Positions 12,747 through 32,579 of a stretch of 32,608 bases of DNA are shown in pieces. Position 1 is the first letter of the stretch. The number at the start of each line of letters is the position of its first letter. A program made the translations under genes and the position numbers. The notes beneath the pieces were generated by a model. It searched no databases, was not told the origin of the DNA, and was given only the letters and a program-made list of their open reading frames with translations. The DNA comes from Anaerolinea sp. (GTDB lineage: Bacteria; Chloroflexota; Anaerolineae; Anaerolineales; Villigracilaceae), in NCBI GenBank assembly GCA_020719725.1, contig DYPU01000021.1, forward strand, positions 1-32,608, read 5' to 3'.

Positions 12747-12752
12747 AACGCC

Positions 12753-15536
12753 ATGATGAAAATGCTAAAATTCCTGAATTTTGACTTTACTTCTTCGGAC
12801 AACGAACAATTACCCGAAGAACAAAAAAATCTGCACCGAATTTTATCAAGCGCGGTAAGTTATATACCGCTTATGTTGGCTTTTAACTTTTTTGGGTTTG
12901 TACTTATTTACCTGCTGGCCCTCGTTGGTCTTTTGGATTATGCTGACCTTAAATTGCTTGGCGTAGCTGCGGTTTCTCTCATAACAGCCGCCCTACATAT
13001 ACCAATCAGCCATTTACTGAAAAAAAATCATCTAAACTCTGTCGTATTGGCTTTATTTTTGCTGGATGGTTCAGCAAGCGCATTCCAAATTTTTCTATGG
13101 CAAGGGACGGCCCCCTTTATATTTTTCTCAATGACCGCAATTAGCCCTGCGATTATTTTTTTACCACTTGGCGGCATAAAAATTCGTTTAAAAATCGTCA
13201 TTATCGGCATTGCCGCCTTACTAGCCATCTCAATGTATGGATTAAACAACAGCCTGGCCTACCCTCGGCTGGAAAAAAGCAACCTCTCTACCATGGCCGG
13301 ACTAACAATTTACGCGACTGTAATCATCGCCATGGTTACCCTCGTTGTAACAAATGCCATCCAGTTTCGGACGATTGTAGCGCGTCTAATAATCACCTTT
13401 GCGTTCATCACCCTGGTTTCAGCCACATCAACACTTGTTATTTCTGGGCTAGTAAACCTGTTCCGCGATAGAAATCAGACAATTCAACAATTACAAGCCA
13501 TTTCAGAACTTAAGTCGGCACAAATGTTTGCCGTGTTGCAAGAATACGAAAAAACAGCCACATCCTCGAACATCCGCGATGAACTGCTCCGCCAACGCAT
13601 CTTATATTTACTAGACGGAAAAATCAACACGCTGACCTACAAGCTCAATTACGAACTTGTTCATTCCGCTATTACACAAACAGCCAATCAAGCTCAGGAA
13701 TATCAAGAGCTTTTTATCTTTGATGATAGCGGTAGGGTTGTCGTCTCCAACATTAAATCAAATGAAAGCCAAGTGATCTCCGGCGAAAAATTCTTCACAG
13801 CCGCCGCCAAAGGCCAACGTTATAGCATCGATAACAATCCCTTCGCCAGCCAACAATCTATTATCATTTTGACCAGAATTGAGCGAAACGGGAAGTTTAT
13901 GGGCGCTTTTGCGACAAAAATCAGCCTGGAGACCATACGCCCAATTTTTGAGACGGAATCCAACCTGGGCGACACACTGGAAACCTACCTGGTTGGCGAC
14001 GATTACTACACCCTGAGCAAAACAAAAGGCGGCGAAAGCGTTTTTGTCGAGACATTTGCGACAATTGGAGCTTTAAGCAGTCGTATTCCTTCGGGAAGTG
14101 GAATTTACAATAATTATGATGATACGTCCGTACTTGGCTATTACCAATTTTTGCCAGAACTGGGCAGTGTTTTTGTATCTGAAATTGAACAAAATGAAGT
14201 AACACAAAAAATTCTGGAGCTTTTATTTACCAACATTAGCGTCGGCGTTTTTACCGCGCTTATGTCTCTCTCAATTGTCTGGGTAATTTCACGCTCAATC
14301 AGCAGACCGGTAGTTTATCTGGCACAAAAAGCAACTCAATTGGCGCAAGGGGATTTATCAACACGCATCAGTGTGGAGCAATCAGACGAAATTGGAGTTT
14401 TGGCAAGCGCTTTCAACTCGGTAGCCAGCGAACTGCAAACACTTATTCAAACTCTCGAACAAAAAGTGACAGACCGCACCGAGGATTTGCAAAAACAAGC
14501 GAATCGCTTACGGGTAGCCGCGGAGGTGTCGCGCGACGCAATAACTTCTCAGGGCCTTGATGAGATCTTAAATCGTTCCGCGCAATTGGTAATGGATCGT
14601 TTCGGCTTTTATCACACCGGTATTTTCTTAATTGACCCTCAGGGTGAATTTGCGGTACTAAGAGCCTCTCCCACCGAAGCCGGGCAGGAAATGATAAAGC
14701 GCGAACACCGCTTAAAAATTGGGCAAGTGGGCATTGTAGGTTATGTCGCAGATGTAGGGGAACCTCGCGTTGCACTGGATACCGGCCAGGATGTAACTTA
14801 CTTCAACAACCCCTTATTACCAAACACTCGTTCCGAGATGGCCTTGCCGCTTACAGTCAACAATAAAATTATTGGCGTATTAGACGTTCAGAGCGAAAAA
14901 TCTGATGCTTTTAGCCAGGAAGATATTGCAACTTTGCAAATTATGGCAGACCAGTTAGCGTTAGCCATTCAAAGAGCGCAATTCTCTGATGAATTACAAA
15001 GAAACTTGCAAGAGCTGGAATATGCCTATCAACGATTTACACTTTCAAGCTGGAGAGACATCTCACAAGAGAGCGAAAAGCGCATTGGCTACAAATATGA
15101 TGGCGCACAAATCACATCCGTAGAAACACCTAATAAAGAACTGGCCCAAGCCCTTCGACAAGGAAAATCTATCGTCAAATCGTTGCCTACCGATGAATCT
15201 GGCAACAAAAAAACAACACTGGCGATCCCAGTAAAAGTCCGCGAACAAATCATCGGCGCTGTAAACTTGGAATTTGCGACAGAATCACTGCCTCAGGATA
15301 CCATCAAGTTAGTTGAAGATTTATCCAATCGCCTGGCAATGTCACTGGAAAATGCGCGCCTGTACACCGAAACCCAAAGACTGGCATCCAATGAACGCAT
15401 GGCTGGAGAAATTTCAACCAAGATTGGCTCATCAATCAATGTAGAGACTATTTTACGGACAACAGTGCAAGAGTTGGGAAGATTTGCGCCAGGAGCCGAA
15501 ATTACTTTAAGGTTGGGCAAGGATAAGGAAGACTAA
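12753..15536 (+). CDS. membrane receptor: polytopic TM bundle + Cache ectodomain + HAMP + GAF + half-GAF
   Basis: 927 aa. About six N-terminal TM segments, then TM-Cache-TM (LFIFDDSGRVVVSNIKSNESQVISGEKFF), HAMP (SRPVVYLAQKATQLAQGDLSTRISVEQSDEIGVLASAFN), GAF. Confidence 0.85.
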   Translation: MMKMLKFLNFDFTSSDNEQLPEEQKNLHRILSSAVSYIPLMLAFNFFGFVLIYLLALVGLLDYADLKLLGVAAVSLITAALHIPISHLLKKNHLNSVVLALFLLDGSASAFQIFLWQGTAPFIFFSMTAISPAIIFLPLGGIKIRLKIVIIGIAALLAISMYGLNNSLAYPRLEKSNLSTMAGLTIYATVIIAMVTLVVTNAIQFRTIVARLIITFAFITLVSATSTLVISGLVNLFRDRNQTIQQLQAISELKSAQMFAVLQEYEKTATSSNIRDELLRQRILYLLDGKINTLTYKLNYELVHSAITQTANQAQEYQELFIFDDSGRVVVSNIKSNESQVISGEKFFTAAAKGQRYSIDNNPFASQQSIIILTRIERNGKFMGAFATKISLETIRPIFETESNLGDTLETYLVGDDYYTLSKTKGGESVFVETFATIGALSSRIPSGSGIYNNYDDTSVLGYYQFLPELGSVFVSEIEQNEVTQKILELLFTNISVGVFTALMSLSIVWVISRSISRPVVYLAQKATQLAQGDLSTRISVEQSDEIGVLASAFNSVASELQTLIQTLEQKVTDRTEDLQKQANRLRVAAEVSRDAITSQGLDEILNRSAQLVMDRFGFYHTGIFLIDPQGEFAVLRASPTEAGQEMIKREHRLKIGQVGIVGYVADVGEPRVALDTGQDVTYFNNPLLPNTRSEMALPLTVNNKIIGVLDVQSEKSDAFSQEDIATLQIMADQLALAIQRAQFSDELQRNLQELEYAYQRFTLSSWRDISQESEKRIGYKYDGAQITSVETPNKELAQALRQGKSIVKSLPTDESGNKKTTLAIPVKVREQIIGAVNLEFATESLPQDTIKLVEDLSNRLAMSLENARLYTETQRLASNERMAGEISTKIGSSINVETILRTTVQELGRFAPGAEITLRLGKDKED

Positions 15537-18283
15537 TGTTTGAATTTTTCAAAAACATCTTTCTCCAATTGTCTGAAACAGACGATAGTAAGCAAAGCAA
15601 TATTGAGGCAATTGCTCTGATCGGGACGGTGGTTGCCTGGCTGGCGCTTCCCGCTTATATACTGATGAATTCCTTTACGAGGGTCTGGCAGTTTGAATAT
15701 TTAATTTATAACGACTTAGCTCTGGCCGTAGGGCTAAGTCTGGCCTATATTTTGGCGCGCACAAAGATTAGATACATCTCCGCCTGGTTGACGGCTTTAT
15801 TCGTCGAAATTACCTTTATCGCTGCAAATTTCTTTGTTTCTGGGCTGGGAATTATCCTAGCCGTCATAGCGCTGACCATTATTATCAATATCGCCTTGCA
15901 GAGTTTGCCAACACAGCAAGCAATATACATGATAATAACAGCAGTCCTTACAACTGCAGGCTGTATCGTTATAGATTTGCTGAACATTTTCCCCGATAGA
16001 ATTGCATCTCCGCAATGGATTCAACAAGTTATTATCGTCTTCGGCGGGGTCGCAATCCTCTTTTTAACTATTAATTATCTCGAAACATTGCAGTTTTCAT
16101 CGCTTCAAACCCAGCTTTCCATCGCTTTTCTGTTAATTGCGCTGCTGCCTCTGGTCACTGTACTTATTTCATCTTTTATTACGCAAACTCAAACCTTAAG
16201 AACCATCCAAGATCAAGAACTAAGAAGAATTTCAAGCGAAATTTCAGATGGAATAGACAGTGAGTTGATTAATCTGACGCAAGCGATGGAGACTCACGCA
16301 AACCTTCCTGCGATTAAGCAGTATCTGACAGATGAAAACTCAACACTTCTGGATACATTTTTAGCCCTAAGTAATCAAAATCCATTTATTCTTTCCTATG
16401 GTCTGGTAGATACGCAAGGAAAAACGTTGCTGGATATTCGCACTTTTCGAGTCAACGAAAACAATGCCAATACAGGTTGGTTTCGAGAAACAATGACGCG
16501 CCGCGCCGGTTATGTTTCAGAACTTATTTATGATACCGACCTGTTACGCCCTGTATTTTATGTCAGCGCTCCAGTTTTCAATGAAGCTCAAGAAATAATA
16601 GCGGTTGTTCGCGCCGAATACGATGCCGAATTTTTAAGAAAATTTCTGATCGACAAAACCAGTGATGAAGATAAAAGCCTCACAGTACTGGTTGTCGACC
16701 GCAACAACATTATTGTCGCCCATAGCGCACAACCAGAACTGCAACAAAAGACATTGTCACTTTTAAGACAAGAACAAATTAGCGCATTGCAAGCCACCGG
16801 GCAGTTGCCTCCCGGCACAGCCGAATCCAATTCGGCGATGCTCACTAAACTCGAAGAATCGCTCAATGCTGCATCCAGTGACGATTTTTTTTCGGCGCAG
16901 CTTGCCAATAATACAGACAGTGAAAGCACCACTACAACCAATAAGATTATTAGCAAAAACTGGACTGTTGTCGTTGGAAAAGTATATAGTTTTGATATGT
17001 TGAATATTTTAAATATTAACCTGACCCCTATTTTGGTTGTGACAGTCGTTATGCTCGCAATGATCGTGACCGCCACAAATACTTCAAAGCTAATTACATC
17101 TCCTATTAACAGACTGACTCTGGTAGCGAAAGAAGTTGGTCAGGGAAATTTGAACGCAAAAACAGGCATCACCCGGCATGATGAAATTGGAACTCTGGCA
17201 AATATTTTTGACGAAACGACCGCGCAACTGAGAGGAATTCTGCAAAACCTTGAAGCGCGTGTTTCGCAGCGCACGAATGAACTGGCTGTAGCCAATACTC
17301 TTGTTACCAAAAAGGCGGATCAGCTAAAAACTGTTTCGAATGTTGCAAATGCCATCAACAATCTGCAAAGCTTAAAATTGCTTTTACCACAGATCGCAAA
17401 TGAAATTAACAAATCATTTGGTTATTATCATGTCGGGATTTTCTTATTGGATCCAAGCGGGCAGTATGCCTTCCTGAGCGCGACAAACAGCGAGGGAGGC
17501 CAACGTATGCTGGAGCGCGGCCACAAACTTCGGGTAGGCCAGGTTGGTATTGTAGGATATGCCACCGGCGTGGGAAAAGCCAGAATTGCGTTAGATGTTG
17601 GTGATGATGCGACATTCTTCAATAACCCCGATTTGCCAGAAACGCACTCCGAAATGGCCTTGCCTTTAAAATCTGGCGGCAACATCATTGGAGCGCTGGA
17701 TATTCAAAGCAAAGAAATATCGGCTTTTTCAAAAGATGATATTGAAATTTTATCGCTTCTGGCAGATCAAATCAGCATTGCTATTGAAAACTCGCGTTTA
17801 TTCGAAGAAACCAGAACTGCTCTAGCAGAAGCTCAACTTGTTTTCAACAAAACGATTCAAGCCAGCTGGAGCGACATCACAGAAACAGAAAAAAGCGCAT
17901 ATCGCTTTAACAACGGTCAGATTACTGAAATCACCCAAAATGAGACAAATCAATCTGATGAAAACCACGAAAATCTTGTGCTCCCCATCAGTATTCGCGG
18001 TGAAAAGCTAGGCTTTATAGAAATAAAAACCGCCCAACAGCGTGAATGGAACGAACAGGATGTCCGAATATTTCAATCGGTTGTGGACCGCTTGGGGTAT
18101 GCCCTTGAAAACGCCAGACTCTTTAGAGACGCCCAAAGATTGGTGTCAAAAGAGAGGGTTATCGGCGAAATTGCAAACAGAATCGGGCATTCTGTAAATC
18201 TGGACGATATTATGCAAATAGCAGTAGAAGAACTGGGACATATTATCACCGATTCTGAAATTACGATTCAGCTCGGCGAATAA
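15536..18283 (+). CDS. membrane receptor: polytopic TM bundle + Cache ectodomain + HAMP + GAF + half-GAF
   Basis: 915 aa, same layout as the upstream gene; TAATG overlap with it; HAMP (SPINRLTLVAKEVGQGNLNAKTGITRHDEIGTLANIFD); GAF FGYYHVGIFLLDPSGQYAFLSATNSEGGQRMLERGHKLRVGQVGIVGY. Confidence 0.85.
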   Translation: MFEFFKNIFLQLSETDDSKQSNIEAIALIGTVVAWLALPAYILMNSFTRVWQFEYLIYNDLALAVGLSLAYILARTKIRYISAWLTALFVEITFIAANFFVSGLGIILAVIALTIIINIALQSLPTQQAIYMIITAVLTTAGCIVIDLLNIFPDRIASPQWIQQVIIVFGGVAILFLTINYLETLQFSSLQTQLSIAFLLIALLPLVTVLISSFITQTQTLRTIQDQELRRISSEISDGIDSELINLTQAMETHANLPAIKQYLTDENSTLLDTFLALSNQNPFILSYGLVDTQGKTLLDIRTFRVNENNANTGWFRETMTRRAGYVSELIYDTDLLRPVFYVSAPVFNEAQEIIAVVRAEYDAEFLRKFLIDKTSDEDKSLTVLVVDRNNIIVAHSAQPELQQKTLSLLRQEQISALQATGQLPPGTAESNSAMLTKLEESLNAASSDDFFSAQLANNTDSESTTTTNKIISKNWTVVVGKVYSFDMLNILNINLTPILVVTVVMLAMIVTATNTSKLITSPINRLTLVAKEVGQGNLNAKTGITRHDEIGTLANIFDETTAQLRGILQNLEARVSQRTNELAVANTLVTKKADQLKTVSNVANAINNLQSLKLLLPQIANEINKSFGYYHVGIFLLDPSGQYAFLSATNSEGGQRMLERGHKLRVGQVGIVGYATGVGKARIALDVGDDATFFNNPDLPETHSEMALPLKSGGNIIGALDIQSKEISAFSKDDIEILSLLADQISIAIENSRLFEETRTALAEAQLVFNKTIQASWSDITETEKSAYRFNNGQITEITQNETNQSDENHENLVLPISIRGEKLGFIEIKTAQQREWNEQDVRIFQSVVDRLGYALENARLFRDAQRLVSKERVIGEIANRIGHSVNLDDIMQIAVEELGHIITDSEITIQLGE

Positions 18284-18311
18284 TATTCTAATCCGGCAAA
18301 GGAGTTATAGA

Positions 18312-20252
18312 GTGAATCGTTTTTTCTTCACCCAACAAGGCACGCTCCGCTTCCGCGCAAGAATTGCGCTGGCTTTTACGTTCATTGGCATTCTAGTTTC
18401 TATTGTTGCGAGTATTAGTCTGTACAACAGTGCCCGCATTCAAATCATCAAACAAATTCAACAGCGCGCTATTACAATCGCCAGTTTAACCGCCATCCAA
18501 CAAAATGGAGACCTGCACTCCACGCTAACTGAACAAGACAGCAGTACCTACAATTCTGTACGAAATCGTAATACCATTATTATGAACACTGATAAAGAAA
18601 TCACATCTATCTACACAATGCGGCGCGATGAAACCGGAAATATCTACTTTGTGGTAGATGTAGTCAATGATAGCTTGTCGGTTCTGAGAGGCCCCGCCAA
18701 ACTGGGAGAATTTTACATAGACGCCAGTGAAGTATTGCAAAATAATTTTGGCACGATAAATTCAACCATTGTTGAAAGCCAGCCATATACCGATAGTTGG
18801 GGAACCACCCTTTCAGCCTATGCACCTTTTTATCGCTCCAACGGAGAAATTGAAGGGATCGTAGGTGTAGATATTTCCGCAAACGTAATCGAAACAGCCC
18901 AACAAGAGATTATCGCTACAAGTTTTTATTTAATTTTAGGGCTGATCCCGTTAACCGGCATTGCTGGCTGGATACTAGGAACTGTGACGGCCACACCCAT
19001 CGAAAAGATAGCAGAAAGCGCTCAAAAAATTATCAATGGTGACTTTTCGCAAACGGTTCAGGTTCATTCCAGGGACGATATTGGCCTTTTAGCTACGACT
19101 TTTAACAAAATGACCGACCAGTTACGCGGGTTAATTTCCAACTTGGAAAGCCGCGTTTCCGAAAGAACGGTGGAGCTTACTGCTCAAACCCAGGAGTTAC
19201 AAACGCTAGCCAAGCAAGAAGAACGCCGCGCCAGCCAATTTCAAACCATTGCTCAGGTCAGTTCCATTATCAACACGGTCCAAAGTACAGAAGAATTATT
19301 GCCACGCATTACCAATATTATTAGCGATCAATTTGGTTATTATCATACAGGCATCTTCCTTATTAGCGCTGATGGCCGCTATGCTGTCTTAAGCGCAACC
19401 AATAGTCCTGGCGGCAAAAAAATGCTGGCGAGAAACCATCGCTTAAAAGTGGGCGCAGCAGGAATTGTCGGGTTTGTAACTGGAACCGGTGTGCCTAGAA
19501 TTGCGCTTGACGTCGGTGACGATGCTGTCTTTTTTGACAATCCCGATTTACCGGATACCCGGTCTGAGGCGGCGGTACCGCTCCGAGCTGGCAAACAAAT
19601 CATCGGGGCGCTTGATGTCCAAAGCGAGACATCTGCCGCTTTTAGCCCGGCAGATGTCGAATTGCTTTCTATTTTGGCAGATCAGGTCACAATCGCCATT
19701 GAAAACTCACGTCTATTTGAGCAAACACGAAAATCGCTGGCAGATGCTCAGAACGTATATCGACAATATCTAAAAACGCAGTGGACAGAATTCTTAAAGG
19801 ATGAGAAAAAAACCGGATATCGTTATGCCTTGACCAAAACCTACGCCATCGACCAGGCAGTTGATTCGCCGCAGACACAACAAGCAAAAGTATCCGGAAA
19901 AACCCAATTTATTAAGGATGAGAAATTTCCTCAGATTATTATTCCGATAAAGTTGCGCGACGAGGTCGTCGGAGTCTTGAATATCACGTCACAAACCAAT
20001 CGAGAATGGACCGAGGATGAGCTTGATATTGCCCAGGCTGTAGCCGAGCGCGTGGCGATTGCATCAGAAAATGCCCGCCTACTCAGCGAAACTCAGCGGA
20101 AGGCCGCAAAAGAAGAAACTATTGGACAAATCACATCCAAGATTAGTTCATCGGTAAACATGCACAATATCTTGCAAACCACAGTTGAAGAAATTGGGCG
20201 CGCCATCCCTGGCTCAGAAATTGTCATTCAGCTTCGCGGGCAGGATAACTAA
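18312..20252 (+). CDS. membrane receptor: TM-Cache-TM-HAMP-GAF-half-GAF
   Basis: 646 aa, GTG start after GGAG; ectodomain ITSIYTMRRDETGNIYFVVDVVND...GEIEGIVGVDIS; HAMP TPIEKIAESAQKIINGDFSQTVQVHSRDDIGLLATTFN; GAF. Confidence 0.85.
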   Translation: MNRFFFTQQGTLRFRARIALAFTFIGILVSIVASISLYNSARIQIIKQIQQRAITIASLTAIQQNGDLHSTLTEQDSSTYNSVRNRNTIIMNTDKEITSIYTMRRDETGNIYFVVDVVNDSLSVLRGPAKLGEFYIDASEVLQNNFGTINSTIVESQPYTDSWGTTLSAYAPFYRSNGEIEGIVGVDISANVIETAQQEIIATSFYLILGLIPLTGIAGWILGTVTATPIEKIAESAQKIINGDFSQTVQVHSRDDIGLLATTFNKMTDQLRGLISNLESRVSERTVELTAQTQELQTLAKQEERRASQFQTIAQVSSIINTVQSTEELLPRITNIISDQFGYYHTGIFLISADGRYAVLSATNSPGGKKMLARNHRLKVGAAGIVGFVTGTGVPRIALDVGDDAVFFDNPDLPDTRSEAAVPLRAGKQIIGALDVQSETSAAFSPADVELLSILADQVTIAIENSRLFEQTRKSLADAQNVYRQYLKTQWTEFLKDEKKTGYRYALTKTYAIDQAVDSPQTQQAKVSGKTQFIKDEKFPQIIIPIKLRDEVVGVLNITSQTNREWTEDELDIAQAVAERVAIASENARLLSETQRKAAKEETIGQITSKISSSVNMHNILQTTVEEIGRAIPGSEIVIQLRGQDN

Positions 20253-20262
20253 AGGTACATTT

Positions 20263-22008
20263 ATGCAAAACTGGCTTAAGGAATTATTACAAAATTCAGA
20301 AATTGAAGAAAACTCTCCCAAAAATCTTCAAATGCTCCGAACAATTTTGGTTTTTATGATTGGCCTGACCGTTGTGACGGCCATCTTTATAGCAACACAA
20401 CGCAATCTGCCCGCCACGCTAATTTTATTAACTCTTGGCGCACTTTTATTTGCAAGCTATGTTCTTCTGCAACGCGGCCTGGCCTTTCCCGCTCGTTTTT
20501 TCCCGCCTCTGGCATTGCTTGTCGCAGTTTTTTTGATTGCGCTAAGAGCCAATGGGATCCACGACTCATCGTTAGCTACTTTTGCTTTTATCGTCATTTT
20601 TGCCAGCCTAACAATGGGCCAAAAAGGTGCCGTTTTGTTTGCCGGGTTAACTTTTCTAGCTATTCTAGTGATAAGTATCTTAGAAGTTTCAGGGATTTTT
20701 GCAAACCAACTAAGCGCATATACTGACTTATCCGACATTGTAATACTCGGAATCATTATACCGATGGGCACAGCCAGTGTTCAAATTCTGCTTATCCGTA
20801 AATTGAACAAAAGTATTGCGCTGGCAAAGAAAAGCGCGGAAGAACAAAGAAATGTTAATGCAGAAATCGCACAGATACAAGAACACCTTGAAGAACGCAT
20901 CGCAGAGAGAACATTGGACCTGGCAAAAAAATCCAAAGAATTGGAAGAACAATTAGTATCCAACCAACGGAGAGCGCGGCAATTTCAGGCCGTTGCGGAT
21001 GTAGCCCGCTATATCGCCGCGCTTCAGAATCTTGATGTTTTGTTTGCAAACATTACAGAACTAATTAGCGAAAGATTTGGCTATTACCATGTAGGCATTT
21101 TCCTAAACGATGAAGCCGATTTTAACTCCATCTTACGGGCCAGTAACAGCCCTGGGGGGAAAAAAATGCTTGAAAATAATCACAGACTAAAAATCGGAGA
21201 AACGGGAATCGTAGGGAATGTGGCTCAAACTGGTTTGCCTCACCTCGCATTAGACACCGGCGGGGATAATGTTTTCTTCAATAATCCTTATTTACCTGAA
21301 ACACGCTCCGAGATGGCGGTAGCACTGAAGATTTCTGAAAAAATCATTGGTGTAGTTAATATTCAAAGCGTTGAAGCAAATGCGTTCTCCAATGAAGATA
21401 CTGAAGTCTTCACGGCTTTGGCAGATCAGATTGCCATAGCCATTGAGAATACCCGGCTCTACGAGAGTCAGCAAAAATCAGTCGCAGAATCGGAAACAAT
21501 CTATCGTCAGTACTTACGAGAAGGGTGGGGACGCCTGTCAAACGAAGAAAACCTGACCGGGTATCACTACAAACTGGGTAGCGTCACCCCGCTAAAAATC
21601 GCCATAGAAAACCCGGAGTTCACGCAAGTCATGGAAACCGGAACTATCAAAATTGATACAGAGACCAAGGATTTGTTGTCTCTGGTGGTTCCGATCAAAC
21701 TGCGTGGCGAGGTTTTAGGAGTGCTTAATATTCAACAGCCGGGCAATAGAAACTGGACAAAAGATGAAATAGAGTTGGTTCAGGCCGTTGCAGACCGGGT
21801 CGCTATTTCCGCAGAAAATGCGCGGTTATTTGAAGAGTCACAGCAAAGGGCATCGCAAGAACAAGCTATCGGAGAAATATCGGCTAAATTAAGCTCGTCT
21901 GTAAACTTAAATACAGTTTTGCAAACTGCTGTCGAAGAATTGGGCCGTGTTTTGTCTGGTACGGATGTTGCCATTCAACTACTGGTTACAGAAGAGCAGC
22001 AAAAGTAG
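20263..22008 (+). CDS. polytopic membrane GAF receptor
   Basis: The track ORF opens at 20185 inside the previous gene. ATG at 20263 (MQNWLKELLQNSEIEENSP) is the likely start. TM bundle, coiled coil, GAF FGYYHVGIFLNDEADFNSILRASNSPGGKKMLENNHRLKIGETGIVGN. Confidence 0.85.
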   Translation: MQNWLKELLQNSEIEENSPKNLQMLRTILVFMIGLTVVTAIFIATQRNLPATLILLTLGALLFASYVLLQRGLAFPARFFPPLALLVAVFLIALRANGIHDSSLATFAFIVIFASLTMGQKGAVLFAGLTFLAILVISILEVSGIFANQLSAYTDLSDIVILGIIIPMGTASVQILLIRKLNKSIALAKKSAEEQRNVNAEIAQIQEHLEERIAERTLDLAKKSKELEEQLVSNQRRARQFQAVADVARYIAALQNLDVLFANITELISERFGYYHVGIFLNDEADFNSILRASNSPGGKKMLENNHRLKIGETGIVGNVAQTGLPHLALDTGGDNVFFNNPYLPETRSEMAVALKISEKIIGVVNIQSVEANAFSNEDTEVFTALADQIAIAIENTRLYESQQKSVAESETIYRQYLREGWGRLSNEENLTGYHYKLGSVTPLKIAIENPEFTQVMETGTIKIDTETKDLLSLVVPIKLRGEVLGVLNIQQPGNRNWTKDEIELVQAVADRVAISAENARLFEESQQRASQEQAIGEISAKLSSSVNLNTVLQTAVEELGRVLSGTDVAIQLLVTEEQQK

Positions 22009-22039
22009 CGGATAGAAAGAAACGACACAGGAGATACAG

Positions 22040-23836
22040 ATGTCACCAGAGTCGAACAATCAAAAAACATCCAGGCTGAGAACCTTTGGGGGCTGGCTCA
22101 TTGATCCTTTACAAACCCACCCAAAAATTTCCGAAAAACGCCATGCGCAATTGTTGGCAATCTTGACTCTCGTATTTATTTTCTCTAATTTAATCGGGCT
22201 ATGGTCAACCATAAGCATGGGCGGCTGGAGCAATTCGACTCTAACTTTGATATTGCTTACTATTCTAACAACCTCAGCCTACGCGCTAAGCCGGACCCAA
22301 AAACATCATGCTGGAGCCATTCTGTTCATTGCAAGCTGGAACATAGGCGCGTATGTCACCGCTTATTTTACAGAAGGCCAACCCGTAGGCACGATTAATG
22401 CCCTGCTGGCGTTTGTTTTCGTCATGTCCAGCGTGTTGCTCACTTTAAAATCAATCGCAATATTGGTTGGGCTCAATATCGCTGGATTTTTTATACTAGG
22501 ACTGATATTTCCAGACTTGAGCGCCATTGAAATCTATACAATTGCTGGAACATCGGGAACTCTTGCCGTATTGGTGCTTGTTTTGACAGCATATCGAAAT
22601 TTTCTAGAAAATCAACAGTTGGCAGAAGTGCAAAAAATCAATACCGAATTACTGGCGGCAAACTTTGAATTAAGTCAAAACCGGCTACTGCTAGAGCAAC
22701 GTGTTCTGGCGCGAACTTCCGAGCTTGAACTACGCACTCAGGACCTGGAGAAACGATCTAACGAATTGATTGAAGCCGATATTCAAATTAGACGAAGGGC
22801 TATTCAGGCCGAAACCATTGCAAAAGTAGCTCAATCCATTGCATCTATCCAAAATTTGCAAGAGTTGCTGCCACTAATTACACAAGTTATCAGCGAACAG
22901 TTCAATTTCTATCATACTGGAATTTTCTTGACAGACGCAGCCAACGAATATGCAGTCCTGAGCGCAGCCAATAGTGAAGGTGGTCAGCGTATGCTAAATC
23001 GCGGGCACCGCTTACGCATTGGTCAAACTGGTATTGTCGGTTACGTCGTCGCTGCCGGAAAACCGCGCATTGTTTTGGATACCGATAAAGACACTGTTCA
23101 TTATAAAAACCCCGATTTACCCGATACACAATCTGAGATGGCTCTTCCGCTGCGAATTGGAGAAAAAATCATTGGGGCCTTAGATGTGCAAAGCCTGGAA
23201 GCGGAGGCCTTTACTGAACAAGATGCAGAGGCCTTATCCACCCTGGCAGACCAGGTCAGCATTGCCATTCAAAATTCACGCCTGTTTGAAACAAGCCAAA
23301 AATCACTGGCAGAAGTCAATACGATTTACAGACAAACCTTGCAAGAAACCTGGTCTAAGACAATCGACGAACAGGATACAGTGGGATATCGCTTTAGCGC
23401 GCTGGGTAACCAACCCTTACAGGAAGAATTAAAAACAAAAAGCGTGCGACAAGCCCTTAGCAGCGGTCAAATGGTGGTAATACAAGAAGCCGAAACGCCT
23501 GAACTGGCGACTCCCATAAAGGTGCGCGGACAAATTATCGGCATCTTAAATGTTCGAGCGCCAGATGGGCACACTTGGAAAAAAAGCGAAATCAGCATTC
23601 TACAAGCTATCGCAGATCGGGTGGCAAGCTCGGCAGAAAATGCGCGTCTCTTTGAAGAAACAACCAGCAGAGCCCAACGCGAAAGAACTGTCTCTACCAT
23701 TACCACCAAAATTCGCAGCACCAATGACCCAGACCAAATGTTAGCCATTGCGCTGGCCGAACTAAGAACTGCGCTTAATGTCAAAGACATTCATATCAAA
23801 AAAATAGAAGACCCTGCCGAATCAACGCAGCGCTAG
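22040..23836 (+). CDS. polytopic membrane GAF receptor
   Basis: 598 aa, N-terminal TM bundle, coiled coil RVLARTSELELRTQDLEKRSNEL, GAF FNFYHTGIFLTDAANEYAVLSAANSEGGQRMLNRGHRLRIGQTGIVGY, half-GAF tail. Confidence 0.85.
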   Translation: MSPESNNQKTSRLRTFGGWLIDPLQTHPKISEKRHAQLLAILTLVFIFSNLIGLWSTISMGGWSNSTLTLILLTILTTSAYALSRTQKHHAGAILFIASWNIGAYVTAYFTEGQPVGTINALLAFVFVMSSVLLTLKSIAILVGLNIAGFFILGLIFPDLSAIEIYTIAGTSGTLAVLVLVLTAYRNFLENQQLAEVQKINTELLAANFELSQNRLLLEQRVLARTSELELRTQDLEKRSNELIEADIQIRRRAIQAETIAKVAQSIASIQNLQELLPLITQVISEQFNFYHTGIFLTDAANEYAVLSAANSEGGQRMLNRGHRLRIGQTGIVGYVVAAGKPRIVLDTDKDTVHYKNPDLPDTQSEMALPLRIGEKIIGALDVQSLEAEAFTEQDAEALSTLADQVSIAIQNSRLFETSQKSLAEVNTIYRQTLQETWSKTIDEQDTVGYRFSALGNQPLQEELKTKSVRQALSSGQMVVIQEAETPELATPIKVRGQIIGILNVRAPDGHTWKKSEISILQAIADRVASSAENARLFEETTSRAQRERTVSTITTKIRSTNDPDQMLAIALAELRTALNVKDIHIKKIEDPAESTQR

Positions 23837-23869: not shown

Positions 23870-24661
23870 ATGACTTACATCATAGCAATATCAAACGAAA
23901 AAGGCGGGGTGGCAAAAACCACAACAACTTTTTCTATGGGAGCATCACTTGCCGATATGGGAAAGCGAGTTCTGCTATTAGACCTTGACCCACAGGCAAA
24001 TCTCACTCTCGCCAATGGTATTGAGCCAAACACTACCACCAAAAACAGCAGCCAAATCTTACTGGAGGGTTTAGCTGCGAAAGAAGCCATTATCAAAACA
24101 AATGTTGAAAATCTGGCAATTATCCCGTGTAATTCACGCATGTCAGACGCTGAACATTTTTTGCCGGTGCGTATCAATTACCAGTTTATTTTGCGGGATG
24201 CCTTACAACAAGCCAAATTAGACAACTATGAGTACATCGTTATGGATTGCCCGCCTTCAATGGGCGCAATCACGATAAATGCTCTGACCGCCTCCAATCT
24301 GCTTATTATCCCTACTCAGGCAGAATATTTTTCAGCATACGCTCTACGAGATATGATGGTTCTGATTCGAAGAATTCGAAAAGAAACAAATCCAGACCTG
24401 GCTTATCGAATTCTGGTTACGCTGCTCGACCAGCGTAACCGTACTCACCGCGCGATACGAGAACAATTACAACAAACTTTTGGAGCAGGGTTATTTACAT
24501 CTGTAATAGAAATTGATACACGCTTGCGGGAAAGCCCAATTGTAGGAATGCCAATTTCGCAATATCGCCCAAAGAGCAGAGGATCACAGCAATATCATGT
24601 ATTGGCTGAGGAGTTAATAGAATATGTCAGACAGCAAAAAGATTCGCAGCAAACTGAATAA
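23870..24661 (+). CDS. ParA/Soj-family ATPase (candidate cluster-positioning ATPase)
   Basis: 263 aa; deviant Walker A EKGGVAKTTTTFSMGASLADMGKRVLLLDLDPQANLT; YEYIVMDCPPSMGAITINALTAS. Confidence 0.92.
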   Translation: MTYIIAISNEKGGVAKTTTTFSMGASLADMGKRVLLLDLDPQANLTLANGIEPNTTTKNSSQILLEGLAAKEAIIKTNVENLAIIPCNSRMSDAEHFLPVRINYQFILRDALQQAKLDNYEYIVMDCPPSMGAITINALTASNLLIIPTQAEYFSAYALRDMMVLIRRIRKETNPDLAYRILVTLLDQRNRTHRAIREQLQQTFGAGLFTSVIEIDTRLRESPIVGMPISQYRPKSRGSQQYHVLAEELIEYVRQQKDSQQTE

Positions 24662-27600
24662 GCTTTTTGATGATATCGCCCAACCAGAAGGCGAACAGCC
24701 AATATCATCAGAAAAGCCAAAAACTGCACGCAAACAGCCCGCGCAAAAAAGCGCTGAGGGTGGTGTTCAGCTATCTCGAAGAACACCACGACACACGGGT
24801 ATGCTGCCAAATCTAGCCGAAACCGCCAGTCCGACAGTAACCGTTAGCGAAGCCACATCCGAAGGAACTGCCACGCTTTCGATTCCGTTTGTTTCTGGTG
24901 AAACTTGGAATAATATCGAAATTATTGATCACCAATCGCGCAAATGGAAATCTGAAGAACAGGCGCTTGTACGGGATGTTGTAGACCAACTAACCCTGGC
25001 CTTACAAAATGCGAATCTTTTTCAGCAAACCCAAAGACAAAATAGCCATCTGGAAATTCTGAATGAAATGGGACGCGAGTTGGCAACTCAGCTTAACGTT
25101 CAACAGGTGATCGAGAGTGCCTATAAATTTTCCAGCCAATTAATCAACACTTCCAGTTTTTTTGTTGCCTTGTACTCTGGCGATAGCGAAACGCTTACCT
25201 TTCCGATAGTAATGGTGAGGGGCAAGCGTATTGAATATACACAGCGCAAAATAAGAAGTGGGCTGACGGACTACGTTCTTCGGACTCGCAAAGCGCAATT
25301 GCTAAACGGGGATGTAACCGCTCAAATAGAAGCTCTGGGCATTCAGTTTATCTCAGTGGGCAATACCAACCCGGCAGTTTCCTGGCTGGGCGTTCCCATC
25401 ACGCTGGGCAGCAAGACGCTCGGCGCAATTGTCGTTCAAAGCACGGAAACCCCCTATCTCTATACAGAACAAGAACGCGACCTTCTAACCGCAGTTGCCA
25501 GCCAAACTGCAATTGCCTTGCAAAATGCCCAACTCTTCGAGCAAACTCAACAACAAAATGCAGAGTTAGCTATTCTTAACGATATGGGCAATGAATTATC
25601 TTCTTTGCAGACTACCGATGGTATCGCCGCGATCGTTTACAAATATGCTGGCAAATTAATGGATGTAACTGATTTCTTTCTGGCAATTTACCATAAAGAG
25701 ACAGAAGAAATGTCTTTCCCGCTGGTCTACTTTGAAGGCAAACTCATTCAGGCCGAACGTCAGGAAGTGGGCAATGGGCTAACCGGATACGTCATCCGAA
25801 CCCGTCAGCAGCTCTATTTGCCAGAGAATGTAGATGAAGGAATCGTCAAATTAGAGTTGGACTCACTGGAATTGGCAGAAGAAGCTCCGGCGCTGTGCTG
25901 GCTTGGCGTCCCAATGGTTTCGGGCCAGGAAGTTTTAGGTGTCGTCTCGTTACAAAGCTCCAAAACCGCACAGCTCTACTCCGAACGTCAGCGCGATCTG
26001 CTCTCGGCAGTTGCCAATCAGGCTGCAATTGCCTTGCAAAATGCCCAACTCTTCGAGCAAACTCAACAACAAAATGCAGAGTTAGCTATTCTTAACGATA
26101 TGGGCAATGAATTATCTTCTTTGCAGACTACCGATGGTATCGCCGCGATCGTTTACAAATATGCTGGCAAATTAATGGATGTAACTGATTTCTTTCTGGC
26201 AATTTACCATAAAGAGACAGAAGAAATGTCTTTCCCGCTGGTCTACTTTGAAGGCAAACTCATTCAGGCCGAACGTCAGGAAGTGGGCAATGGGCTAACC
26301 GGATACGTCATCCGAACCCGTCAGCAGCTCTATTTGCCAGAGAATGTAGATGAAGGAATCGTCAAATTAGAGTTGGACTCACTGGAATTGGCAGAAGAAG
26401 CTCCGGCGCTGTGCTGGCTTGGCGTCCCAATGGTTTCGGGCCAGGAAGTTTTAGGTGTCGTCTCGTTACAAAGCTCCAAAACCGCACAGCTCTACTCCGA
26501 ACGTCAGCGCGATCTGCTCTCGGCAGTTGCCAATCAGGCTGCAATTGCCTTGCAAAATACGCGCCTGTTTCAACAAACTGAAGGCCAAAATGCCGAACTT
26601 TCCGTGCTCAATGAAATTATACGCTCGGTTTCAGCAGAAATCAGCCAGGAAAAGGTTTTTGAAGTTGCCTACGAAAAAGTTCGTACCATCATACGCGCCG
26701 ATGCTTTCATCGTGGCGCTTTATGATGAAGAAAACAATGTCATCAAATATCCATTTAACATCGACGAAGGCATCCGATACGAAGCAATCGATAGCAAACT
26801 AGATGCCAGTAATTATATAGGCCAGGTACTCCTAAGCGGAGCACCCGTCCTTAAATTACGCAATGCGGAAAACCTAAACAAAAGAAAAACAGCCAGTCAG
26901 CCTCTGGGCAACATCAGCAAAATATCTGCGTCTTTGCTCTACGTTCCACTGCAACAAGGAACAAAAATCATCGGTGTATTATCTGTCCAAAGCTATGAGC
27001 TTAATGCATATAGCAATAAAGAAAAAAAGCTGCTCGAAAATATCGCCAACCAACTGACCGTAGCCATTCAAAACGCATTGCTCTACGACCAGGTCCAACA
27101 GCGCGCCAATGAGCAAGCGCTTCTAAATCAAATCGTTTCATCTGTCACAAACAGCCTCGACTTGCGAGAAAACCTGCAAAACGTAGCCAATAAAATTACC
27201 AAATACTTTCGGGCTGGGCACGTTGGCATAACAACCTTATCGGCAGATAAAAAATCACTGATTTTAACGGCAGATGCTCCCGCCCCTCCGGGTGGTTCCC
27301 CGGATATTGGATTATCAATTTCGATAGCTGGGAACCTTGCCACTGAAAAAGTAATCAATACCCGCAAAAGCCTGCTCATTGAAGATGTGCCCAACAACCC
27401 AGAAATGGAACCCATCCGCGAGATAATGAAAAACCGCGGAACCAAGCATCTTCTCATCTTACCAATGCTGGCAGGCGATGAAGTAATTGGCACGATAGGC
27501 GTAGATATTTTAAATGACTCGCGCATCATTACGGGCGAAGAAATAGCCCTACTGGAAACAATTGTCATCCAAATTGCCACTGCCATTCAAAATGCAAGAC

Positions 27601-30600
27601 TTTACCAAAATATTCAAGTTTCCGAAACCCGCTTCCGTGATGTGGCGCTGGCTTCCGCCGATTGGGTCTGGGAACTGGACCCGGAAGGCCGCTATACCTA
27701 CTGCTCCGACAAAGTTTTTGATGTGCTTGGCTACAAACCAGAAGATGTTTACGGCAAAAGCCCCGCCGATTTCATGCCAGCTAATGAAAAAGAGCGCGTC
27801 GTTCAAATTTTATCGGCTGCATTACATAAAAAAGAACGCCTCATCGACCTTGAAACCAGAAATATCACCCAAGACGGCCAGGTAGTCATTCTGCTAACGA
27901 ATGGACTACCCATCCTTGATGAAAACAACACCCTGGTCGGCTATCGCGGCGTTAATAAAAACATCACCGAACAAAAACTGGATCAGGCTGTCGCCGATGG
28001 CCTTGCCGAAATCACCGAGGCTGGTGTGACCAACACCTCTATCAATCAGGTTTTACCAGCCATCCATAAAAGCATCCTCAAGCTCTTACCCGCCAAAAAC
28101 ATCTACTTTGCGCTATTTGACCCAGAAAAAAACTTAATTTCCTACCCCTACAAAGTGGACGAACAAGATCAGGCTCCCTGGCCCAGCCATGAACCCTCTA
28201 AAAATCTCACCAACCACATCATCCGCACCGGAAAAGCATTACGCGTCACCCATCAAGAAATAGAGGAACTGGCCGACGCAGGAATCATTCAGCGCCGCGG
28301 TGCCCCTTCCAAACTATGGATCGGCGTACCGCTAAAAACAAAAGAAACCATCGGGGTCGTTGCCATCCAAAATTATGATTCCATTGAACTGACCGAGCGA
28401 CACTTTGAAATCATGCAACGGCTCGCCCCTCAAATTGCTACCGTTATCGATAAAATTCGCGCCGAAGAATCGATTCTTTTACAAAGCGCCGCTCTGGGAG
28501 TTGCCGCCAACGCAATCATCTTAACCGACACCGACGGTAAAATCACATGGGTCAATCCATCCTTCAGCAAACAAACCGGCTATGAAAAAAACGAAGTAAT
28601 CGGAAAAAACACCAGCTTCCTAAAATCGGGAATGCACGACGAAGGCTACTACAAACAAATGTGGGACATCATCACCAGCGGCGAAACCTGGTATGGAGAA
28701 ATAGCAAACCGCCGCAAGGATGGCTCTCAGTTTATTGTGGAACAAACAATCAGCCCGGTACGCAATTCAGATGGAGACATTTCTCACTACGTCTCCATTT
28801 GGCAGGATATTACCGACCGCAAACACACCGAAGAAACCCTGCGCCGCCAAAACGAATATCTGGCAACCGCTACTGAAGTTGGTCGTTTAATTACATCCAC
28901 CCTAGATATACCAACACTCTTCAACCGCACCGTCAGCCTGGTTCGATCTCGATTTGGGTACTACCACGTTTCAATTTTCACCGTCGAAGAAACCGGCTTT
29001 ACCTCCACCTTGCGAGAAGCAACCGGCGAAGCCGGAGAAGAGATGAAACGACGTCAGCATTCACTCACCGTCGGTTCAAAATCCATTATCGGCTATGTCA
29101 CCGCCAACGGAAAAACCCTAATCGTCAACAACACTGCCATCGACCCAATTCACCGACCCAACCCCTTGCTGCCAGAAACCAAAGCTGAAGCCGGTATTCC
29201 GCTAAAAATCGGCTCACGCATCATTGGCGCACTCGATATTCAGGCCCGTGAAGTTGGCGCATTTATGGATGAAGATATTGCCGTCCTCGAAACCCTGGCC
29301 GACCAAATTGCAGTTGCAATCGACAATGCCCGCTCCTACGAATTGGCCCAACAGGCCGTAAGCGAAATGCGCGAGCTGGATCGCATCAAAAGCCAGTTCC
29401 TTGCCAATATGTCACATGAATTACGCACCCCACTCAATTCCATCATCGGCTTTTCGCGCGTAATCCTAAAAGGAATAGATGGCCCGGTAAACGAACAACA
29501 ACACCAGGACCTTTCAGCAATCTACAATTCTGGGCAGCACCTGCTCAACCTGATCAACGACGTACTCGATTTATCCAAAATCGAGGCTGGCAAAATGGAA
29601 TTGGCAATCGAAGAAGTCAATATTAGCGATACCATTAACAGCGTCATCTCTAACGCCATGGGACTCGTCAAAGACAAACCTGTGCGGCTCGAAAAAGAAA
29701 TTGAAGCGGGTGTACCCACCATTCGGGCAGATGCCATGCGCATTCGCCAGGTTTTAATCAATCTAATCTCCAATGCCGCAAAATTTACCGAAGAAGGCAT
29801 CATCTTAATAAAAGCCAGCCTGCACATCAATTCTTCAGGGCAACAAGAAGTAATTGTGAGCGTAAAAGACACCGGCCCAGGCATTTCGCCCGAAAACCAA
29901 AACAAATTATTCCAGGCCTTCTCGCAAGTAGATTCTTCACCCACGCGCAAATCTGGCGGAACAGGCCTCGGCCTTTCAATTTGTCACCGCCTGGTGCAGC
30001 TTCACGAAGGCCGCATTGGTGTTCACAGTGTAGTAGGCGAAGGCAGCACATTCTACTTCACCATCCCTGCCTACCGCCAAGCAGTAAGAGAAGAAGAGAC
30101 AAATGGAAAAATCATCCTGTGCATTGACGATGACCCACAAATCATCAGTCTCTACGAACGCTATCTGAAACCGCAGGGCTACAAAGTGGTTGCTTTAAGC
30201 AATCCGGCCAACGCCAAAGACACTATCAAGCGCATAAAACCCTACGCAGTCACCCTCGATATTATGATGCCCGAAATGGACGGATGGCAAGTTTTGACAA
30301 GCATCAAAAACGATGCAGAAACACGCGATGTTCCAATTATCATTTGCTCCATCGTAGAAGAAGAAGAAAAGGGCTTTAGCCTGGGCGCAGCAGATTATCT
30401 GGTCAAACCCATCCTGCAAGATGACTTGCTACTTTCGCTCAATCGCCTAAATGGCGACGGCACCATCACAGAAGTACTCATCATCGACGATTCACCCGAT
30501 GATCTGCGCCTGCTCGAAAGAATCATCTCAGAAAAAGGCAATTACCTGACCCTCACCGCCGAAGGTGGTCTGGCTGGCTGGAACGCAATCCAACAGAAAA

Positions 30601-30848
30601 AGCCCCACGCCATCATCCTCGACCTGTTCATGCCCGACATGGATGGCTTTGCAATCATTGAAAAGCTAAAAACATCACCAGAACTGCGTGATATTCCAGT
30701 CATCGTCATCAGCGGAGCAGACCTAACCGAAGAACAACATAGCAAGCTAAGCAACCTTGGCAAAACCATGCTCCAAAAAGGAATGCTTGAGCAAAAAGAA
30801 CTCTTTGAAACGCTAGAAAAAGCCCTGCAACGCCTAAAACAAAAATAG
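24624..30848 (+). CDS. giant hybrid histidine kinase: basic N-terminus, half-GAF, GAFx5, PAS, GAF, PAS, GAF, HisKA, HATPase, REC, REC
   Basis: 2074 aa. H-box NMSHELRTPLNSIIGFSRV (His codon 29415-29417), N-box LINLISNAAKF, G-boxes DTGPGIS and GGTGLGLSI. REC1 CIDDDPQ...VTLDIMMPEMDG; REC2 IIDDSPDD...IILDLFMPDMDG. Overlaps the ParA gene by 38 nt. Confidence 0.95.
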   Translation: MSDSKKIRSKLNKLFDDIAQPEGEQPISSEKPKTARKQPAQKSAEGGVQLSRRTPRHTGMLPNLAETASPTVTVSEATSEGTATLSIPFVSGETWNNIEIIDHQSRKWKSEEQALVRDVVDQLTLALQNANLFQQTQRQNSHLEILNEMGRELATQLNVQQVIESAYKFSSQLINTSSFFVALYSGDSETLTFPIVMVRGKRIEYTQRKIRSGLTDYVLRTRKAQLLNGDVTAQIEALGIQFISVGNTNPAVSWLGVPITLGSKTLGAIVVQSTETPYLYTEQERDLLTAVASQTAIALQNAQLFEQTQQQNAELAILNDMGNELSSLQTTDGIAAIVYKYAGKLMDVTDFFLAIYHKETEEMSFPLVYFEGKLIQAERQEVGNGLTGYVIRTRQQLYLPENVDEGIVKLELDSLELAEEAPALCWLGVPMVSGQEVLGVVSLQSSKTAQLYSERQRDLLSAVANQAAIALQNAQLFEQTQQQNAELAILNDMGNELSSLQTTDGIAAIVYKYAGKLMDVTDFFLAIYHKETEEMSFPLVYFEGKLIQAERQEVGNGLTGYVIRTRQQLYLPENVDEGIVKLELDSLELAEEAPALCWLGVPMVSGQEVLGVVSLQSSKTAQLYSERQRDLLSAVANQAAIALQNTRLFQQTEGQNAELSVLNEIIRSVSAEISQEKVFEVAYEKVRTIIRADAFIVALYDEENNVIKYPFNIDEGIRYEAIDSKLDASNYIGQVLLSGAPVLKLRNAENLNKRKTASQPLGNISKISASLLYVPLQQGTKIIGVLSVQSYELNAYSNKEKKLLENIANQLTVAIQNALLYDQVQQRANEQALLNQIVSSVTNSLDLRENLQNVANKITKYFRAGHVGITTLSADKKSLILTADAPAPPGGSPDIGLSISIAGNLATEKVINTRKSLLIEDVPNNPEMEPIREIMKNRGTKHLLILPMLAGDEVIGTIGVDILNDSRIITGEEIALLETIVIQIATAIQNARLYQNIQVSETRFRDVALASADWVWELDPEGRYTYCSDKVFDVLGYKPEDVYGKSPADFMPANEKERVVQILSAALHKKERLIDLETRNITQDGQVVILLTNGLPILDENNTLVGYRGVNKNITEQKLDQAVADGLAEITEAGVTNTSINQVLPAIHKSILKLLPAKNIYFALFDPEKNLISYPYKVDEQDQAPWPSHEPSKNLTNHIIRTGKALRVTHQEIEELADAGIIQRRGAPSKLWIGVPLKTKETIGVVAIQNYDSIELTERHFEIMQRLAPQIATVIDKIRAEESILLQSAALGVAANAIILTDTDGKITWVNPSFSKQTGYEKNEVIGKNTSFLKSGMHDEGYYKQMWDIITSGETWYGEIANRRKDGSQFIVEQTISPVRNSDGDISHYVSIWQDITDRKHTEETLRRQNEYLATATEVGRLITSTLDIPTLFNRTVSLVRSRFGYYHVSIFTVEETGFTSTLREATGEAGEEMKRRQHSLTVGSKSIIGYVTANGKTLIVNNTAIDPIHRPNPLLPETKAEAGIPLKIGSRIIGALDIQAREVGAFMDEDIAVLETLADQIAVAIDNARSYELAQQAVSEMRELDRIKSQFLANMSHELRTPLNSIIGFSRVILKGIDGPVNEQQHQDLSAIYNSGQHLLNLINDVLDLSKIEAGKMELAIEEVNISDTINSVISNAMGLVKDKPVRLEKEIEAGVPTIRADAMRIRQVLINLISNAAKFTEEGIILIKASLHINSSGQQEVIVSVKDTGPGISPENQNKLFQAFSQVDSSPTRKSGGTGLGLSICHRLVQLHEGRIGVHSVVGEGSTFYFTIPAYRQAVREEETNGKIILCIDDDPQIISLYERYLKPQGYKVVALSNPANAKDTIKRIKPYAVTLDIMMPEMDGWQVLTSIKNDAETRDVPIIICSIVEEEEKGFSLGAADYLVKPILQDDLLLSLNRLNGDGTITEVLIIDDSPDDLRLLERIISEKGNYLTLTAEGGLAGWNAIQQKKPHAIILDLFMPDMDGFAIIEKLKTSPELRDIPVIVISGADLTEEQHSKLSNLGKTMLQKGMLEQKELFETLEKALQRLKQK
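25507..26558 (+). repeat. perfect 516-bp tandem duplication of one GAF + linker unit inside the giant kinase gene
   Basis: 25507-26042 is identical by eye to 26023-26558 (offset 516 bp = 172 codons). The shared 20-bp edge CTGCAATTGCCTTGCAAAAT occurs at 25507, 26023 and 26539. Confidence 0.95.
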
Positions 30849-30855
30849 CCACAAG

Positions 30856-30886
30856 AGCGATAGACCTGGCAGACAGGTCTATCGCT
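30856..30886 (+). promoter_or_regulatory. intergenic hairpin between kinase and threonine synthase-REC
   Basis: AGCGATAGACCTG (30856-30868), 5-nt loop, CAGGTCTATCGCT (30874-30886): 13-bp perfect stem without a T-run, just before AAAGGAG-ATG. Confidence 0.75.
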
Positions 30887-30902
30887 TAATAAAGGAGACC
30901 CC

Positions 30903-32579
30903 ATGCCATTCTCAATTCGGTGCATCGACTGCGGCCTGATTACAAGTTACCACCCCAACGACCTGACCTGCCCCAACTGCAAAAGCCAATGGCGCGAAGC
31001 CATTTACAACTACGACACAATCGCCAAACAACTGCCAGATGCCCTAAATAGCCGCACCTTCGACCTTTGGCGCTACCATGAATTGCTTCCCATTCACAAA
31101 TCCATCCCCAGTCTGCGCATGGGCGAAGGCGGAACGCCCCTCATTCGCGCCGTAAACCTGGGCCTTATGCTAGGCTGTAACAACATCTTCATAAAAGACG
31201 AAAGACAAGGCCCAAGCGCCTCCTTCAAAGACCGTCAGGCCGCCGTCACCATCGCCGCCCTCAAAGAAGCCGGAATCACCGAAATGGTCGCCGCCTCCAC
31301 CGGCAACGTTGCCATCTCCTATTCAGCCTTTGCCGCCCGAGCCGGAATCAAGCTATGGGCCTTCGTCACCAGCCTGGTTCCTGCCGTAAAAATGCGCGAA
31401 ATCGCGCTGTACGGCAGCCAAGTCATCAAAGTCACCGGGTCATACGATCAGGTCAAAAAAATCGCCGCCGAATTTGCCGAACAGCGCGGCCTGTACCACG
31501 ATATGGGCGCGCGCACCATCACCTCCGTCGAGGGTATGAAAACCATCGCCTACGAAATCGCCGAACAGCTCACCGAAGAATTTGGCCCCCCTACTGATGG
31601 CAGCCGCTGGCAAACCCCCACCTGGTATATTCAAGCCATTAGCGGCGGGCTTGGCCCAATTGGGGTTAGCAAAGGCTTTCATGAAATGCAACAAATGGGG
31701 CTTATCAAAAACATTCCCGCCATCGCCGCTATCCAAGCCGACGGCTGCGCTCCAATGGTACACGCCTGGAAGCAAAACCAAGAAGAAGCCAGCGCCGTCG
31801 TCAACCCCAAAACCCACATAGAAACCCTGGCAACCGGCACACCTGGCCGCGCCTATCCGCTGCTGCGCAAAGAATTCAAAGCACATCAGGGATTATTTGA
31901 AAGCGTCACCGACGAAGAAGCCTTTCGCGCGATGCACGTCCTCGCCAAGATGGAGGGGGTCTCCGCCGAACCCGCCTCAGCTGCCGCCTTCGCCGGTTTA
32001 TTCAAACTGGTACGAGCCGGAATCATCAAGCCGAACGACATCGTCGTGGTCAATTGCACCGGGCATACCATGCCAGCCGAACCCCTGGTGCTTGGCTCCG
32101 GCTGGGCCAGAAATGTAGTTCTCCCCAAAGAAGATGAAAACAACGCCGAAACAACCCCCAAAGAAGGCGAAGGCCTGCTTGCAGCCCTCAGCCGGGTCGC
32201 CCCAGACCGCTTCCCGCGCGTTGCCATTGCCGACGACACTCCAGATGCCCGCCGCCTGATTCGGCGCATTTTACAATCTCAGGGCGAATACACCATCTTT
32301 GAAGCCAGCAATGGCCGGGAGGCCCTGGAACTTGTCAACCGCGAACATCCCGACTTGCTCATTCTTGACCTGATGATGCCCGAAATGGACGGGTTTGCCG
32401 TATTAGACGCGCTCAAAAACAACCCAGACACCATGCACATCCCCGTCATCGTTTCAACAGCCAAAGAACTCACCAAAGACGAAAAAGACCTGCTTCAAGG
32501 TCAAATACAGGCCCTTATGCAAAAAGGTGACTTTATGAGCGATGAGTTCCTGGAAGAAGTAAAATCTTTAATTCGATAA
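30903..32579 (+). CDS. threonine synthase-like PLP enzyme fused to a C-terminal response-regulator receiver domain
   Basis: 558 aa. N-terminal zinc-ribbon CIDCG...CPNC; PLP-lysine motif GPSASFKDRQA; SGGLGP phosphate loop. After the linker KEDENNAETTPKEGEG, REC domain VAIADDTPDARRLIRRIL...LLILDLMMPEMDGFAVL...IPVIVSTAKEL...LMQKGD. Confidence 0.93.
   Translation: MPFSIRCIDCGLITSYHPNDLTCPNCKSQWREAIYNYDTIAKQLPDALNSRTFDLWRYHELLPIHKSIPSLRMGEGGTPLIRAVNLGLMLGCNNIFIKDERQGPSASFKDRQAAVTIAALKEAGITEMVAASTGNVAISYSAFAARAGIKLWAFVTSLVPAVKMREIALYGSQVIKVTGSYDQVKKIAAEFAEQRGLYHDMGARTITSVEGMKTIAYEIAEQLTEEFGPPTDGSRWQTPTWYIQAISGGLGPIGVSKGFHEMQQMGLIKNIPAIAAIQADGCAPMVHAWKQNQEEASAVVNPKTHIETLATGTPGRAYPLLRKEFKAHQGLFESVTDEEAFRAMHVLAKMEGVSAEPASAAAFAGLFKLVRAGIIKPNDIVVVNCTGHTMPAEPLVLGSGWARNVVLPKEDENNAETTPKEGEGLLAALSRVAPDRFPRVAIADDTPDARRLIRRILQSQGEYTIFEASNGREALELVNREHPDLLILDLMMPEMDGFAVLDALKNNPDTMHIPVIVSTAKELTKDEKDLLQGQIQALMQKGDFMSDEFLEEVKSLIR

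Follow-up and report, generated by a model that had tools for sequence, protein, structure and literature searches.

Does a two-component system in an Anaerolinea species act directly on a metabolic enzyme? The question is raised by one gene in a 32,608-nt stretch of DNA (positions 1-32,608, + strand, of contig DYPU01000021.1 in assembly GCA_020719725.1, from Anaerolinea sp., Villigracilaceae). We refer to this whole stretch as the window. A preliminary description of the window viewed the gene as a threonine synthase-like PLP enzyme fused to a receiver (REC) domain, and it raised the possibility that the enzyme is controlled directly by phosphotransfer.

One reading frame joins a PLP enzyme to a receiver domain

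The gene is a single frame without internal stops, and its parts are as follows.

30903-32579, + strand: PALP-REC fusion gene, 558 amino acids (from the ORF, Pfam domains, and orthologues)
30903-30992, + strand: zinc-ribbon-like N-terminal segment with Cys 7, 10, 23, and 26 (invariant in alignments A1 and A2)
31116-32057, + strand: PALP domain (fold-type II PLP enzyme), residues 72-385, with the PLP lysine K109 at 31227-31229 (from PF00291, invariance, and a fold match to threonine synthases)
32094-32213, + strand: variable acidic linker with a conserved short helix (EGLLAAL) at its end (from the alignment and the structure model)
32217-32576, + strand: REC domain, residues 439-558, with the phospho-acceptor D489 at 32367-32369 and with D445, T519, and K541 (from PF00072 and residue conservation)

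Both domains are far above Pfam's gathering cut-offs: PALP (PF00291, residues 72-385) scores 215 bits versus a cut-off of 35 (E = 1.8e-63), and Response_reg (PF00072, residues 440-541) scores 77.9 bits versus 30.2 (E = 8.5e-22). Together with the intact frame, these scores bear out the claim that one uninterrupted ORF encodes a fold-type II PLP enzyme and a complete REC domain. The finer features in the preliminary description are also present: the lysine motif SxSFKDR (SASFKDR in this protein, with K109), SGGLGP (residues 247-252), the zinc ribbon, and, in the receiver, the acidic pair, phospho-acceptor aspartate, Ser/Thr switch, and lysine (D445, D489, T519, and K541). The linker (residues 398-437) is acidic, as had been noted; across homologues it is 32-49 amino acids long with a mean of 16% D/E, and the window's own copy is more acidic than this mean. 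In the AlphaFold model of the protein (pLDDT 77, pTM 0.67), pLDDT drops below 50 at residues 388-426. An interface between REC and PALP would at most be a prediction of this model, which counts against the view that REC gates the enzyme.

The fusion is widespread and the receiver appears to be obligate

Such a frame could arise if two genes were joined in assembly or read through by chance. However, the same genome encodes a second full-length PALP-REC protein (on contig C33; 48% identity to the window protein). Among 60 relatives that we searched, most members of the family and order have a fusion of the window's type (A-type, 50-89% identity), and about 20 of the 60 have a paralogous B-type fusion as well (about 47-50% identity). 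When we sampled 300 Chloroflexota genomes evenly and added the source genome, 35 genomes had a strong match. Of these matches, 34 span both PALP and REC, some of them in further families of the class and in two lineages that belong to other Chloroflexota classes; the remaining match (G062) is a more distant PALP without REC (35% identity, in a 420-aa frame).

A scan of species genomes gave at least 527 candidate stretches that encode a relative of the query, and we named the best 80 of these (at least 527) as loci. The fusion is present in all 80. Nearly all of the 80 are titled Chloroflexi, Anaerolineae, or genera of these, and one is a MAG titled Blastopirellula. This MAG (L132, Blastopirellula marina) carries an Anaerolineae-type operon at 72% identity and is probably a misnamed bin. 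At L080 (9397-10974), the N-terminal half of PALP is in frame with an EamA transporter and REC is absent, due to either a deletion or an assembly effect. No plasmid record had a place that covered 80% of the query, and the best rows matched only the PALP part.

Full-length fusions occur in many independent assemblies, single-contig genomes included. With the second copy in the source genome and the fused homologues across the order, the class, and other classes, this refutes an assembly join, and we consider a join or a read-through to be next to impossible. Its independent occurrence in many genomes excludes chance and artefact as the source of the fusion. Absence from close relatives, proposed at the outset as a check, was not what we saw.

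As a test of obligate linkage, we used only the PALP part as the query against 150 class-level genomes and took the length of the matching frame as an indirect test for REC. This gave 56 matches at 49% identity or above. Frames of 539 amino acids or more account for 54 of them, and the other two, in short frames of 321 and 332 amino acids, are partial matches; none of the 56 lies in a 400-440 aa frame without REC. We also checked 75 fused proteins residue by residue: D445, D489, and K541 are invariant and position 519 is always T or S (75/75). In alignments of the fused proteins, SFKDRQA (with the PLP lysine), ASTGN, SGGxGP, CxGH, and the four zinc-ribbon cysteines are kept or nearly so. Among A-type orthologues, mean pairwise identity is 77% for PALP, 72% for REC, and 59% for the linker. 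PALP and REC thus appear to evolve at about equal rates while the linker drifts, and we take REC to be, by all appearances, an obligate part of the protein.

The enzyme is probably a distinct relative of threonine synthase and cysteate synthase

The window protein is a fold-type II PLP enzyme, with PF00291 above its cut-off and K109 invariant. Which enzyme is it? Its best NCBIfam match bears the name threonine synthase, and a fold search with the AlphaFold model returned threonine synthases first (a cysteate synthase, 9k3c, was within the top dozen). It resembles solved threonine synthases (PDB 2zsj, 2d1f, and 6cgq) in its fold, its PLP lysine motif, and its ASTGN loop. In contrast to them, it has SGGxGP instead of GNAGN, and it also has the zinc ribbon and REC. 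Moreover, it misses every NCBIfam cut-off for threonine synthase (149.3 versus 167.1 bits for TIGR00260 and 249.1 versus 303 bits for PRK08197). The NSxNPxR segment of threonine synthases has a role in binding the phosphate of the substrate. The solved threonine synthases and the ThrC of this genome have the motif, but the fused proteins lack it and have D-x-G...E-x-M-K-T there instead. That ThrC is encoded by a bona fide thrC on contig C41 (299 bits versus a cut-off of 167) that adjoins thrB; the genome also has a homoserine dehydrogenase gene.

So, despite the nearest folds and the name of the top match, it is very unlikely that the fusion is the organism's regulated threonine synthase. The low scores, the absent motif, and the thrC beside thrB led us to reject this identity and the label first given to the gene. 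Also, 32 of 41 genomes searched have a strong thrC besides the fusion. The other 9 have no strong thrC at the threshold that we used, so the fusion might act as a threonine synthase in those genomes.

The zinc ribbon had suggested a cysteate synthase-like activity as an alternative, which fares no better: against TIGR03844, the window protein scores 112.9 bits versus a cut-off of 324.9, and we rejected membership in this family. The cysteate synthase in PDB 9k3c (CapA2) has a similar domain length and an N-terminal extension that aligns over the zinc-ribbon region; it is 21% identical, and REC is found only in the fusion. The fused proteins do score higher for TIGR03844 (113-119 bits) than do the two other zinc-ribbon PALPs of the genome that we tested (65-67 bits). 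A tree of PALP proteins places the fused proteins in a single group with a long stem (support 0.71). The enzyme probably represents a distinct, active branch close to both threonine synthase and cysteate synthase.

A histidine kinase adjoins the fusion

Upstream of the fusion, the window encodes the following.

6671-23836, + strand: eight consecutive GAF/HAMP/dCache sensor ORFs without kinase domains (from Pfam and relatives' loci)
23870-24661, + strand: ParA/MinD-type ATPase (AAA_31); in relatives, too, it often precedes the kinase (from Pfam and relatives' loci)
24624-30848, + strand: giant hybrid histidine kinase with 7 GAF stretches, 2 PAS, HisKA, HATPase_c, and REC-REC, the presumed phosphodonor (from Pfam and position)
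30420-30818, + strand: terminal REC of this kinase (matched stretch), which groups with the enzyme's REC (from similarity and the REC tree)
30854-30888, + strand: strong hairpin between the kinase and PALP-REC genes (the 60-nt gap region folds at about -26 kcal/mol)

The kinase is 2074 amino acids long. Among the best 80 of at least 527 stretches, a histidine kinase is directly upstream of the fusion at 76 loci, and an EamA transporter is downstream at 74 (contig ends cut off another 4). At the window's own locus, the EamA gene lies just past the end of the window (contig C28, 32751-33698). With its REC score, its conserved residues, and this linkage to a kinase, the protein is a probable response regulator of the REC family.

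Different hairpins, with T-runs, occupy the gap between the kinase and PALP-REC in three relatives from the same genus, and the core of the window's hairpin is unique in its genome. It is possible that this hairpin is a terminator or attenuator. Because of such terminator-like hairpins between the two genes, their co-transcription is doubtful at several A-type loci.

Some other features of the window deserve mention. The sensor ORFs are co-directional, have no HisKA, HATPase, or MCP domains, and all lie upstream of a single giant kinase. In the kinase, two long tandem stretches within residues 305-655 or so (EQTQQQNAELAILNDMGNELSSLQ...) seem identical by eye, which could reflect a recent duplication within the gene or an effect of assembly. 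At the other end of the window (2-4695, - strand), genes for a semialdehyde dehydrogenase, a LysX-type ATP-grasp protein, and argininosuccinate lyase and synthase look like a LysW-type arginine pathway. A 120-aa ORF at 5182-5544 matches an HMGL-like domain over its first 49 positions only and is probably a truncated gene.

Proteins with dCache-HAMP-GAF or GAF domains recur upstream in relatives, and many share both the ATPase and the sensors. Given this setting inside a large sensory cluster, PALP might be a non-catalytic ligand-sensing or scaffold module, so that binding of an amino acid would tune REC or the kinase and not the reverse. At the loci that we examined, no known biosynthetic gene is consistently adjacent, with EamA as the only constant downstream neighbour. 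But the PLP lysine, the ASTGN loop, the loop for the PLP phosphate, and CxGH are all kept in the 75 proteins, and a pure sensor need not keep every one of them. We consider a sensory PALP to be unlikely.

The enzyme's receiver resembles the kinase's last receiver

The enzyme's REC had been described as resembling the last REC of the giant kinase. This was confirmed: outside of the second fusion, its best match in the genome is that REC (36% identity, E = 1.2e-21). In a tree of REC domains, the receivers of PALP-REC proteins cluster with most of the kinase-terminal RECs (moderate support, 0.82), and the kinase's other REC falls outside this cluster. This suggests that the two receivers descend from a common ancestor by duplication, which would not prove that there is a phosphorelay between them.

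At most of the listed B-type loci, PALP-REC starts 1-3 nt behind a GAF-HisKA-HATPase kinase, and a lone REC gene usually comes next. Two genomes from another class (L189 and L196) have the same order of kinase, PALP-REC, and REC. The B cluster often includes a third PALP, of the PRK08197 class and without REC, which recurs in several relatives. For example, at L009 (4717-5943), the third PALP scores 505 bits versus 303 for PRK08197 and adjoins a B-type PALP-REC and a lone REC.

REC domains often serve as sinks or dimerisation units. The enzyme's REC could likewise be a phosphate sink, or a docking or dimerisation module that places the enzyme at the kinase, with no role in gating; its closeness to the kinase's terminal REC and the flexible linker would fit. 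A sink does not need a covalent linkage that is obligate across the class, or two paralogous families that each have a kinase of their own, and the B cluster already has a lone REC gene. For these reasons we give little credence to a receiver without a gating role.

A proposed response regulator with a PLP enzyme as its output

We propose that the protein is probably a response regulator of a two-component system, with a PLP-dependent enzyme as its output that is gated by phosphorylation of D489. The adjacent multi-sensor histidine kinase would pass phosphate to D489 in the C-terminal REC. Phosphorylation would alter the contacts of REC or the oligomeric state via the flexible linker, and this change would turn the activity of the PLP enzyme up or down. 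The substrate is presumably some amino acid, perhaps a phospho-amino acid, and the EamA transporter conserved alongside the fusion may act on the enzyme's product or on a related amino acid.

Direct phosphotransfer control, as first suggested, is well supported by the conserved phosphorylation residues, the obligate fusion, and the kinase in both paralogous clusters. That much of the suggestion stands on anatomy and context; phosphotransfer and gating themselves are what we infer. Besides the hairpins, two more points count against this proposal. First, the A-type kinase has two RECs of its own, which could take the phosphate instead. Second, at one deep-branching locus (L192), no kinase adjoins the fusion. 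A rather unlikely extension of our proposal is a signal-to-metabolite module, in which the kinase phosphorylates the PLP enzyme and EamA exports an amino-acid-like product, so that sensing leads to a secreted metabolite or a cell-cell signal without transcription.

The presence of a fused PLP enzyme and REC beside a sensor kinase in many Chloroflexota genomes suggests that two-component signalling switches a metabolic enzyme directly in these bacteria. If so, this widespread family would clearly exemplify two-component control exerted directly on small-molecule metabolism, and hundreds of genes whose nearest database label is threonine synthase would gain a function. The B-type paralogue, right behind a simple kinase, would make a compact test system.

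Comparison with known systems

For most response regulators, the target is DNA, a second messenger, or a partner protein. Response regulators with enzymatic outputs, such as CheB and PleD, resemble the fusion in that REC is covalently bound to an enzyme and a histidine kinase gene is adjacent; here, however, the output is a fold-type II PLP enzyme. The attachment of REC to metabolic enzymes is an acknowledged theme (PMC5847659). The archaeal REC-enzyme fusions are typically confined to a family or genus (PMC5847659), whereas PALP-REC occurs across a class and in further Chloroflexota lineages. Our search of openly available papers found none that describes a fusion of threonine synthase or PALP to REC, so the theme is known but this pairing is apparently undescribed.

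Threonine deaminase is a fold-type II enzyme with C-terminal ACT domains. More broadly, fold-type II PLP enzymes are commonly under the control of C-terminal regulatory domains, as in cystathionine beta-synthase with its Bateman module (PMC9081730). Like both of these enzymes, the fusion has a regulatory domain on the C-terminal side of its PLP catalytic core; unlike theirs, this domain is a phosphorylatable REC rather than one that binds a small ligand.
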